64,000 nt of DNA from Balneola sp. (GTDB lineage Bacteria > Bacteroidota > Rhodothermia > Balneolales > Balneolaceae). Below, piece after piece: positions 1,915 to 4,876 of the stretch. Where the stretch lies: assembly GCA_002696035.1 (NCBI GenBank), contig NZQV01000006.1:124001-188000 (forward strand), in the 5' to 3' direction. The position numbers and the translations under genes were made by a program. Below the pieces are notes generated by a model. That model did no database searches, was not told the origin of the DNA, and saw nothing but the letters and a program-made list of their open reading frames with translations. How positions within the stretch are numbered: position 1 is the stretch's first letter; each line of letters starts with the position of its first letter.

Positions 1915-3015
1915 ATGACACTTTCACTCAAGAAATCATCTACAGAATCCCACACCGAAACTTCCATAAAAAAGAAGAAACTGAATGTTTTTATAGCCGG
2001 AATCGGAGCGGTGGGCGGAACATTGACGCAGTTGATCAAAGACCTGAACCACCAGCAATATGAACTGAATATCATTGGAGTTTGCAACAGTAGATACACA
2101 AAATGGTATCCGGATATTGATAAGATCACTAACGGTGAAAAATTGCAGGAAGGTGATCCTACAGATTGGAACCTGATTCCGGATGAGCTTGTAGAACGCA
2201 GCGAAGGCAAACTTATATTTGTGGATGCCACCGGCAGCGAAGTGGTAGCTCATCAGTATCAGCATTTGCTAAATCATGGTGTGCACATTGCCACGCCCAG
2301 CAAGCGGGCCAATACCTTTGGGCAAGATTATTTTGATCACCTCATCAAAGCCAACGATTCCGGCAAAGCACAATATAGATATGAGACTGCGGTTGGAGCC
2401 GGATTACCGATCGTCAGCACCATCAAAACCTTATTAAACAGCGGCGATGAAATCACAGAGATCTCAGGGGTTGCTTCCGGAACTATGACTTTCCTGTTTA
2501 CTCAACTGCAGAATAGCGTTCCTTTCAGTGAGGCAGTTCGAAAGGCAAAAGAAGGTGGTTATTCTGAACCTGATCCGCGCGACGATTTATCAGGTGAAGA
2601 TGTAGCCCGGAAATTTCTGATCCTCGCCCGAACCTGTGGCTACACCTTCGAGCGAAATCAAATTCGGGTGGATACGCTGGTTCCTGAAAAACTGATCTCC
2701 CATTCGATCGAAGAATTCCTGGAACACCTTCCTGACTATGACAGTCACTGGAAAAGCCGGAATGCACAAGCATTGGTTAACAATCGAAAATTGCGGTATG
2801 TGGGAAAATTTACCCCAAAAGGAATTGCTGTGGGTGTTGAAGAGGTAAAAGCAGATTCCCCATTAGCCAATTTGAAAGGAACCGATAATCTCCTTCAGAT
2901 CTACACCAGGCGGTATTCCCAGTCGCCAATTGTTGTGCAAGGCCCCGGTGCAGGTCGTGACGTAACTGCCGCTGGTGTTTTGGGAGATATTATAGATATC
3001 GGAGGGTTTGTTTAA
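1915..3015 (+). CDS. hom: Homoserine dehydrogenase
   Basis: This 366-residue NAD(P)-dependent enzyme reduces aspartate semialdehyde to homoserine. A Rossmann start, GIGAVG, is at residues 29-34 after a charged, poorly conserved N-terminus. The catalytic-domain signature EPDPRDDLSGEDVARK lies near residue 217 and SGTMTFLF near residue 190. There is no aspartokinase domain and no C-terminal ACT domain, so it is a monofunctional, short-type enzyme like the C-terminal half of ThrA/MetL. The start is 3 bases after the metX stop, which indicates one transcript. The true start could be somewhat downstream, because residues 1-20 are Ser/Lys-rich and not family-like. Confidence 0.9.
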   Translation: MTLSLKKSSTESHTETSIKKKKLNVFIAGIGAVGGTLTQLIKDLNHQQYELNIIGVCNSRYTKWYPDIDKITNGEKLQEGDPTDWNLIPDELVERSEGKLIFVDATGSEVVAHQYQHLLNHGVHIATPSKRANTFGQDYFDHLIKANDSGKAQYRYETAVGAGLPIVSTIKTLLNSGDEITEISGVASGTMTFLFTQLQNSVPFSEAVRKAKEGGYSEPDPRDDLSGEDVARKFLILARTCGYTFERNQIRVDTLVPEKLISHSIEEFLEHLPDYDSHWKSRNAQALVNNRKLRYVGKFTPKGIAVGVEEVKADSPLANLKGTDNLLQIYTRRYSQSPIVVQGPGAGRDVTAAGVLGDIIDIGGFV

Positions 3016-3035: not shown

Positions 3036-3683
3036 CTAACTGTGGTATTTGTCATAAGCCCATTCATTCGGATTATTCCGAATGTATTCTGAAATCCGAT
3101 CATAGGATTTTCTGTTTCTGATGATGTGATCATGATATTTGGGTTGCCAATTAAAATCAGGATCTATTTTTCGGGCACCTTTGGTAACCCCAATTTTGTA
3201 TCCGCGGATGATGGATGCCAGATTCCTCGATTGCGGCCCAAATTTATTCAACGATTTCTGTCGTCCCGAATGTAGAGACGCAAAATTTTGTGTCTCTACA
3301 TTTTTACGACCATCATCTTTTTTGTCGATGATAATAATCCCATGAACATGATTTGGCATAATGATGTGTGCCCCTAATTTCACAAAAGGAAAATGATCTG
3401 GTATTTCCTTCCAACAGGTTTGTGCAATTTTGCCTATTGGGGACAATTGCATTTCGGCATTCCCATCAGAATTAACCTCTGTATCGGAATTTGACCGTAG
3501 AGACACAAAATCTTGTGTCTCTATGGTGTCACCATTATCTATTTCGGATTTTACAATTTCACCAAAATAGCATTTGCGCTGATGGGTACATATGGTTACA
3601 AAATACACCCCATTCCATCCGTAATCCCACGATTTCAACCTTACGGTTTCTGATCTATATTTCTTAAATCCACGATTTTGCAT
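3036..3683 (-). CDS. REP-associated tyrosine (IS200-like) transposase with two in-frame palindromes
   Basis: This 215-residue Y1/HUH transposase resembles the RAYT group. The metal-binding HUH motif is HVH at residues 112-114 within IIMPNHVHGIII, and the candidate catalytic tyrosine is Tyr200 in SEYIRNNP. Such enzymes cut single-stranded DNA and are tied to REP palindromes. Two extra loops, residues 53-64 and 128-139, read ETQDFVSLRS and ETQNFASLHS. They are encoded by near-perfect 30-bp palindromes within the gene, so the protein is longer than a plain RAYT. No flanking copies of these palindromes are evident, so mobility is uncertain. The N-terminus has the common YFVTICTHQRKCYFG motif. Confidence 0.85.
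   Translation of the reverse strand: MQNRGFKKYRSETVRLKSWDYGWNGVYFVTICTHQRKCYFGEIVKSEIDNGDTIETQDFVSLRSNSDTEVNSDGNAEMQLSPIGKIAQTCWKEIPDHFPFVKLGAHIIMPNHVHGIIIIDKKDDGRKNVETQNFASLHSGRQKSLNKFGPQSRNLASIIRGYKIGVTKGARKIDPDFNWQPKYHDHIIRNRKSYDRISEYIRNNPNEWAYDKYHS
3271..3300. repeat. 30-bp palindrome inside the transposase gene, copy A
   Basis: TGTAGAGACGCAAAA is followed directly by its reverse complement with one mismatch (TTTTGTGTCTCTACA). In the gene's frame it encodes the core of residues 128-139. It is REP-like and matches copy B at 3496-3525 in sequence and reading phase. Confidence 0.85.
3496..3525. repeat. 30-bp palindrome inside the transposase gene, copy B
   Basis: CGTAGAGACACAAAA followed by TCTTGTGTCTCTATG forms an imperfect palindrome closely similar to copy A. 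It encodes the core of residues 53-64 in the same phase as copy A. Confidence 0.8.
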
Positions 3684-3742: not shown

Positions 3743-4876
3743 ATGAGACTCTTAGCTCTTTTCCTCATCTCCATCCTATCTCTACAGACCGCTTATTCAC
3801 AGGAACGGCAGAGAGCCCGAGACCTGGGGATAAAACCAGGGATTTTGACGCCCGGGCCGTTGAATGCCATAACGGATGTGGATGGAGTTCAAGTTGGACA
3901 CAGAACAATCATTGAAGGCGAAAATATTCGCACAGGGGTTACGGTGATTCTTCCTCATGAAGGAGACCTCTTTAGATCCCGGGTTCCGGCGGCTGTTTAT
4001 GTGGGAAATGGATTCGGGAAAGCACTTGGGTTCACGCAGATCAGAGAGTTGGGAGAAATTGAAACTCCCATAGGATTGACTAATACCCTCAGCGTTCACA
4101 CCGTGGCTAATGGAATTTCGGATTATGTTCTACGTCAGCCCGGGAATGAGAATGTACGATCCGTGAATCCGGTAGTCGGTGAAACCAATGATGGCTGGCT
4201 GAATGACATCCGCGGGCGACATGTGACCATGCAGCATGTTTTTGATGCTATTGAAAATGCGAAAGGCGGTCAGGTGAAGGAAGGCAGCGTTGGTGCAGGA
4301 ACCGGGACTTCCGCGCTCGGATTTAAAGGAGGAATTGGAACTTCATCCCGAACACTCCCTGAAAAGCTTGGCGGTTATACGGTAGGCGTTTTGGTTCAAT
4401 CCAATTTTGGAGGCGTACTTACTATAAACGGTGCACCGGTTGGGGAGGAACTCGAAAATCATTACCTCGCCAGTGAAGTACCCTATGATGTGGACGGCTC
4501 CATCATGATCGTGGTGGCTACTGATGCTCCTCTGCTATCCCGAAATTTGGAGCGATTGGCAAAACGGGCTTTCCTGGGAATTTCGAGAGTAGGCGGTTTT
4601 GCCAGCAACGGAAGCGGCGATTATGTGATCGCTTTTTCTACATCGGAAGATGTGCGCATCAATACGGAAAGAACCGGTTCAACCCAAACCTACACCGAAT
4701 TGAATAATCCGGCCACCACTCCTCTTTTTCTGGCAGCGGTAGAAGCCACAGAAGAAGCTATCCTGAACTCACTATTTATGGCAACAACGGTAACCGGAGA
4801 TCGTGGTCATACGCAAAAAGCTCTTCCTGTTGATCAGGTTTTGAAGATCATAAAGAAATATGATCTGATAGATTAA
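3743..4876 (+). CDS. Secreted P1/S58-family (DmpA-like) aminopeptidase
   Basis: This 377-residue N-terminal-nucleophile hydrolase belongs to the DmpA / beta-aminopeptidase family. A signal peptide (residues 1-19, ending TAYS before QER) supports this start and export to the periplasm. The fold signature PGPLNAITDVDGVQVGH follows at about residues 36-52. The self-cleaving bond should be Gly252-Ser253 in DGSIMIVVATDAPL, making Ser253 the new N-terminal nucleophile of the beta chain. DmpA itself is cut at an equivalent position. The GSVGAGTGTSALGFKGGIGT segment near residue 180 is also typical. Substrate (D-amino acid amides or beta-peptides) cannot be read from sequence. The gene appears to be monocistronic. 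Confidence 0.87.
   Translation: MRLLALFLISILSLQTAYSQERQRARDLGIKPGILTPGPLNAITDVDGVQVGHRTIIEGENIRTGVTVILPHEGDLFRSRVPAAVYVGNGFGKALGFTQIRELGEIETPIGLTNTLSVHTVANGISDYVLRQPGNENVRSVNPVVGETNDGWLNDIRGRHVTMQHVFDAIENAKGGQVKEGSVGAGTGTSALGFKGGIGTSSRTLPEKLGGYTVGVLVQSNFGGVLTINGAPVGEELENHYLASEVPYDVDGSIMIVVATDAPLLSRNLERLAKRAFLGISRVGGFASNGSGDYVIAFSTSEDVRINTERTGSTQTYTELNNPATTPLFLAAVEATEEAILNSLFMATTVTGDRGHTQKALPVDQVLKIIKKYDLID

Follow-up and report, generated by a model that had tools for sequence, protein, structure and literature searches.

Rickettsia palindromic elements (RPE) are palindromic repeats that lie in frame within protein genes and are translated, and in this they resemble the REPs described here. 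We know of no transposase gene of their own that carries an RPE, and the RPE sequences are longer or unrelated.

The nearest described system is subclass 2.4 of the TnpA_REP enzymes, equivalent to RAYT group 4. According to the main text of Quentin et al. (2018, PMC6006769), this subclass is characterized by the motifs NH[IFV]H, WQ and YIxNNP and by a highly variable insert between beta3 and alphaC. The same text describes its REPs as double-foot palindromes of the form GT[AG]G ... C[TC]AC, and names as 'a remarkable and unique feature' of the subclass the presence of frame-preserving REPs within the tnpA_REP genes, generally between the HuH motif and the catalytic tyrosine (HuH-Y). The E. coli TnpA_REP with its REP hairpin (PDB 4ER8) belongs to subclass 2.2 and has a bulged REP, and no REP within its gene is described in that main text (PMC6006769). 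GTAG REPs, as well as in-frame intragenic REPs in other genes, have been reported by Di Nocera et al. (2013, PMC3733652); the hosts named in the main text are DNA repair and other genes, not the RAYT itself.

The gene analysed here agrees with the published account of subclass 2.4 (PMC6006769, main text) in its motifs, the lack of a C-terminal extension, the variable HuH-Tyr insert, the double-foot GTAG...CTAC REP and the in-frame internal REP. Unlike the norm of the subclass, it has a second REP insert upstream of HuH, and, unlike the frequent REPtron layout (PMC6006769), it has no flanking REP nearby. With the GTAG-tagged REPs of the main text of PMC3733652 it shares short GTAG-foot palindromes, mostly intergenic and sometimes in frame in genes, including double insertions. 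Self-insertion was already published in 2018 as the hallmark of subclass 2.4; the present gene is a further case, and this prior publication limits the surprise of the basic phenomenon. The main text of Quentin et al. (2018, PMC6006769) contains neither a hairpin-retention test nor the use of two reading phases. Added here are the palindromic state of one insert in all six related species compared, despite heavy silent-site divergence, the internal palindrome in 70 of 98 genes, the usual match to the REPs of the own genome and the evidence of recurrent insertion.

The RAYT gene and its surroundings

The tnpA_REP (RAYT) gene is located on the minus strand at 3036..3683 of the window, that is, of the whole 64-kb stretch of DNA that was analysed, and forms an intact ORF of 215 aa. 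The HuH (MPNHVH), WQ and YIRNNP motifs are all intact. The naming of the gene as a RAYT in the earlier note is borne out by two matches: the NCBIfam family REP_Tyr_transpos was matched with E 1.8e-11, at 44 bits and thereby below the curated cut-off of 80 bits, and the E. coli TnpA_REP 4ER8 is the one solved structure matched by the family profile (E 2.4e-7). The Pfam search of the 215-aa protein gave no family at E 0.001. The fold predicted for the protein has a mean pLDDT of 79.7, with a core above 90; in Foldseek its best match is again 4ER8, the REP-hairpin complex (E 2.5e-6), followed by IS200/IS605 transposases, and the likeness to the E. coli enzyme extends to fold and catalytic motifs.

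The protein matches TnpA_REP subclass 2.4 (RAYT group 4), as judged by motifs and features rather than by a subclass tree or HMM. These features are: (i) MPNHVH at residues 109-114, in agreement with NH[IFV]H; (ii) W179-Q180 and Y200-IRNNP, in agreement with WQ and YIxNNP; (iii) a variable HuH-Tyr insert (beta3 to alphaC), with a HuH-to-Y distance of 54-119 aa over a comparison set of 98 distinct homologous genes and a loop at residues 121-154 of the model; (iv) the end of the protein 10 residues after NP, hence no C-terminal extension; (v) two in-frame copies of a REP within the gene; (vi) a double-foot REP of the form GT[AG]G...C[TC]AC (GTAGAGAC...GTCTCTAC), one foot base being altered at the upstream site (site A, below). 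Flanking REPs are frequent in subclass 2.4 and not required; no further copy was found in the 64-kb window, and no family palindrome near the gene.

On one side the gene is adjoined by a homoserine dehydrogenase-like gene (1915..3015, plus strand) and on the other by a P1/DmpA-type peptidase-like gene (3743..4876, plus strand), both named from sequence reading and not from a family search. The two neighbours are conserved and serve as synteny markers, the order homoserine dehydrogenase-like gene, RAYT, P1-peptidase-like gene being common to the six orthologues of the genus. A promoter/terminator scan of the region revealed terminator-like sites at chance level and six promoter-like sites against 2.7 expected. 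PADLOC gave no match, so membership of a defence system is not indicated.

Two in-frame palindromes and their reading phase

The two nearly identical palindromes reported in the earlier note are indeed present inside the RAYT ORF; counted as perfect or near-perfect inverted repeats, they reach a little beyond the 30 bp given there. The site A REP (3494..3527, minus strand) is a GTAG...CTAC double-foot palindrome with 15-bp arms and a 4-nt loop; it is located upstream of HuH and codes for residues about 54-63 (IETQDFVSLR). The site B REP (3269..3302, minus strand), also double-foot, has 17-bp arms that are 94% complementary; it lies in the variable loop that separates HuH from the catalytic Tyr and codes for residues about 129-138 (VETQNFASLH). 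With one further residue each, the peptides read through the palindromes are IETQDFVSLRS (54-64) and VETQNFASLHS (129-139). Matches to the consensus numbered four in the window (two sites, both strands) against none in 100 shuffles. As single-stranded DNA the inserts fold into hairpins with energies between -8 and -10.4 kcal/mol (z between -5.8 and -7.4). In the structure model both fall in predicted disordered loops, where pLDDT is about 50 or lower against more than 90 in the core, and the site A loop runs between two strands upstream of HuH.

Comparison with the homologues clearly indicates that site A is an insertion, because the palindrome-free relatives have a fixed spacer there: of the 75 measurable genes that have no palindrome at this place, 69 show a distance of 37 or 39 aa from the FG motif to HuH, against 45-68 aa in the seven genes with one. 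These palindrome-free relatives are without the extra loop, the presence of which would have spoken against insertion. The site A insert is common to all orthologues of the genus, and a few distant genes have acquired one independently. Site B is likely an insertion too, less sharply delimited than site A because the length of the loop varies even where no palindrome is detectable: the HuH-to-Y loop comprises 64-119 aa with a palindrome (median 78) and 54-111 aa without (median 70). On inspection, many genes that have no detectable palindrome in this loop show eroded palindrome remains. The proposal of insertion into the own transposase gene thus holds firmly at site A and less firmly in the hypervariable loop of site B; a self-recognition site, the alternative offered in the note, would be a putative role.

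It had also been claimed that only one phase of the palindrome is free of stops, and that insertion in the same phase twice suggests selection for an open frame. The first point is incorrect: two of the three phases are open (GTA GAG ... and .. AGA GAC ...), the closed phase is the one reading TAG, and relatives use both open ones. An ORF on the plus strand (3139-3345) crosses site B in another phase, as RDAKFCVST. Of the dyads in the related genes, 58 separate codon positions 2 and 3, 17 coincide with a codon boundary and six, owing to odd length, fall on a base; the single palindrome in the TAG phase is not a REP. Two sites would share a phase with a prior probability of about one half, so their agreement is no evidence of its own, and same-phase insertion was rejected as proof of selection, with both open phases in use (58 vs 17 dyads). 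Selection for an open frame is nonetheless supported by the absence of any REP in the TAG phase over the whole set, and the distribution of dyad phases is the one that a filter against stop codons predicts.

The REP family and its recurrence in related genes

The genome search suggested by the earlier note revealed a dispersed repeat family of seven copies (three or fewer mismatches), two of them in the RAYT gene; the remaining five lie in no ORF of at least 100 aa. The chance that two of seven random copies fall within 648 bp of 3.97 Mb is about 6e-7 (21 x (648/3965636)^2). In another genome of the genus, G028, four REP copies of the family were found with no RAYT match, and these are orphan REPs.

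An internal palindrome with an arm score of 11 or more is present in 70 of the 98 homologous genes and in 2 of 98 codon-shuffled controls. Because the genes were collected with HuH and Y peptide patterns and through similarity to a palindrome-bearing family, this proportion should not be taken as an unbiased frequency. The palindromes are located between HuH and Y in 65 cases and before HuH in 16, and for 52 of the 70 genes that have an internal REP, no further one was detected within 400 bp. The internal REPs usually match the dispersed REPs of their own genome. Stem variants common to both kinds of copy are GTAGTGAC in G021/G027, GTAGGGAC in most of the neighbouring genus g2 and GTAGAGACACAA in G023/G026, and in G154, G189, G206 and G318 the internal and dispersed cores are identical; in G104 and for the two RAYTs of G160, the internal REP had no other exact copy that could be found. 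Two REPs within one gene are also more alike (0.83) than REPs across genes (0.66; permutation P 0.0015).

On a poorly resolved tree of the related genes, the phase switched at least eight times and the N-terminal (site-A-region) palindrome appeared or disappeared at least 13 times, which implies recurrent REP insertion or loss across the family. Among the REP-centred loci examined, copies inside convincing genes are nearly all in RAYTs, a tiny fraction of the genome.

One convincing intragenic REP lies outside the RAYTs (L175, G318 contig C9 near 91950-91977). It is a GTAG REP in frame in a 413-aa gene (peptide ENVETRHALSLHE) that is named KdtA/WaaA-like from sequence reading only. Five distant RAYT genes (L068, L098, L099, L113 and L126) possess two or more tandem REPs in the HuH-Tyr loop, which look as if inserts had been added beside older ones.

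Retention of the hairpin and possible explanations

The six orthologues of the genus include two near-identical pairs (L011/L012 and L014/L015) and represent about four independent lineages. Their third-base agreement at fourfold sites is 0.31-0.54 between the main lineages and 0.88 for the close pair L014/L015. At site A, 11-13 of the 14 pairs are kept in all six, with P 0.0002 to 0.0024 per orthologue against synonymous re-coding of the same peptide; each lineage therefore has at least one foldable copy. In L011/L012 two pairs at site A have changed in a compensatory manner, matching the dispersed copies in those genomes. The pairing at site B is significant in two of the six orthologues and indistinguishable from random re-coding in the other four. 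The pairing of site A despite diverged synonymous sites points to maintenance of the hairpin or to its renewal in place, not to a fossil. A hairpin under selection and one renewed from the REP pool would look alike among these orthologues.

The explanation considered probable is that a subclass 2.4 RAYT received the REP of its own genome twice by self-insertion in frame, and that site A has been kept foldable. Most likely the enzyme, acting on single-stranded DNA, would have inserted the REPs into its own gene in the ancestor of the genus, and similar self-insertion would have recurred in other lineages. Of these inserts, only those that fell in surface loops and were read in either of the two phases without a stop would have survived. 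The site A copy would then have been kept able to fold, through selection on the DNA hairpin or through renewal in place from other REPs, the outcome being a gene that retains a copy of its own substrate. We infer both the role of the enzyme as the inserter and the reason for which the copy is kept; REP mobility by subclass 2.4 enzymes would follow by analogy with what is inferred for the whole TnpA_REP family. More tentatively, the internal REP may be a selected part of the element. The gene would keep one foldable substrate copy, at site A, by hairpin selection or enzyme-driven renewal, and the transposase would thereby remain linked to its substrate and change in step with it on inheritance or transfer. 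These results bear on the spread of REPs and on the persistence of RAYTs as single-copy, apparently domesticated transposases. They also offer a natural system for tests of enzyme-REP co-evolution, in which each gene states its own cognate REP.

Neutral tolerance, by which REPs jump anywhere, are purged from structured protein and are tolerated without benefit in the loops of RAYTs, appears unlikely, even though both sites fall in predicted disordered loops, a REP also lies in frame in the KdtA/WaaA-like gene, the pairing of site B has been lost in four of six orthologues and REPs persist in broken RAYT genes. It does not readily account for the near restriction of the examined in-gene REPs to RAYTs, nor for a site A that remains paired in all six orthologues against strongly diverged synonymous sites. 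Autoregulation, in which the enzyme would limit its own expression by binding a hairpin in the RAYT mRNA or coding DNA, or the hairpin would do so by an effect on translation, would fit the stability of the hairpins and their maintenance at site A; it is improbable, given that among the pairs disrupted on one strand G.U is not more frequent in the sense direction (9 sense vs 18 antisense), and an mRNA hairpin as the thing kept finds no support in this asymmetry. An ancient insertion that occurred once at site B and passed to all subclass 2.4 genes, its stem drifting along with the REP family, would explain why most palindromes occupy one HuH-to-Tyr loop and mostly one phase (46 with the dyad at 2|3), and was rejected as very improbable on the alternation of the two dyad phases over the tree and on a position in the loop that varies between 18 and 62 residues after HuH; tandem or N-terminal copies in several genes also speak against it.

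In the neighbouring genus g2, an in-frame stop or a frameshift disrupts four of the five RAYT orthologues (L016, L017, L019 and L022), in which 12-14 of the 14 pairs of the internal palindrome are still formed; the intactness of a palindrome does not, therefore, imply that its gene is active. The genome of the window encodes a second RAYT (L002, G000 contig C20:35017-35523), 40% identical to the first, which has its own internal palindrome with a different core (GTAGGGACGTTGTATGCAACGTCCCTAC) and the same dyad phase as the window gene.
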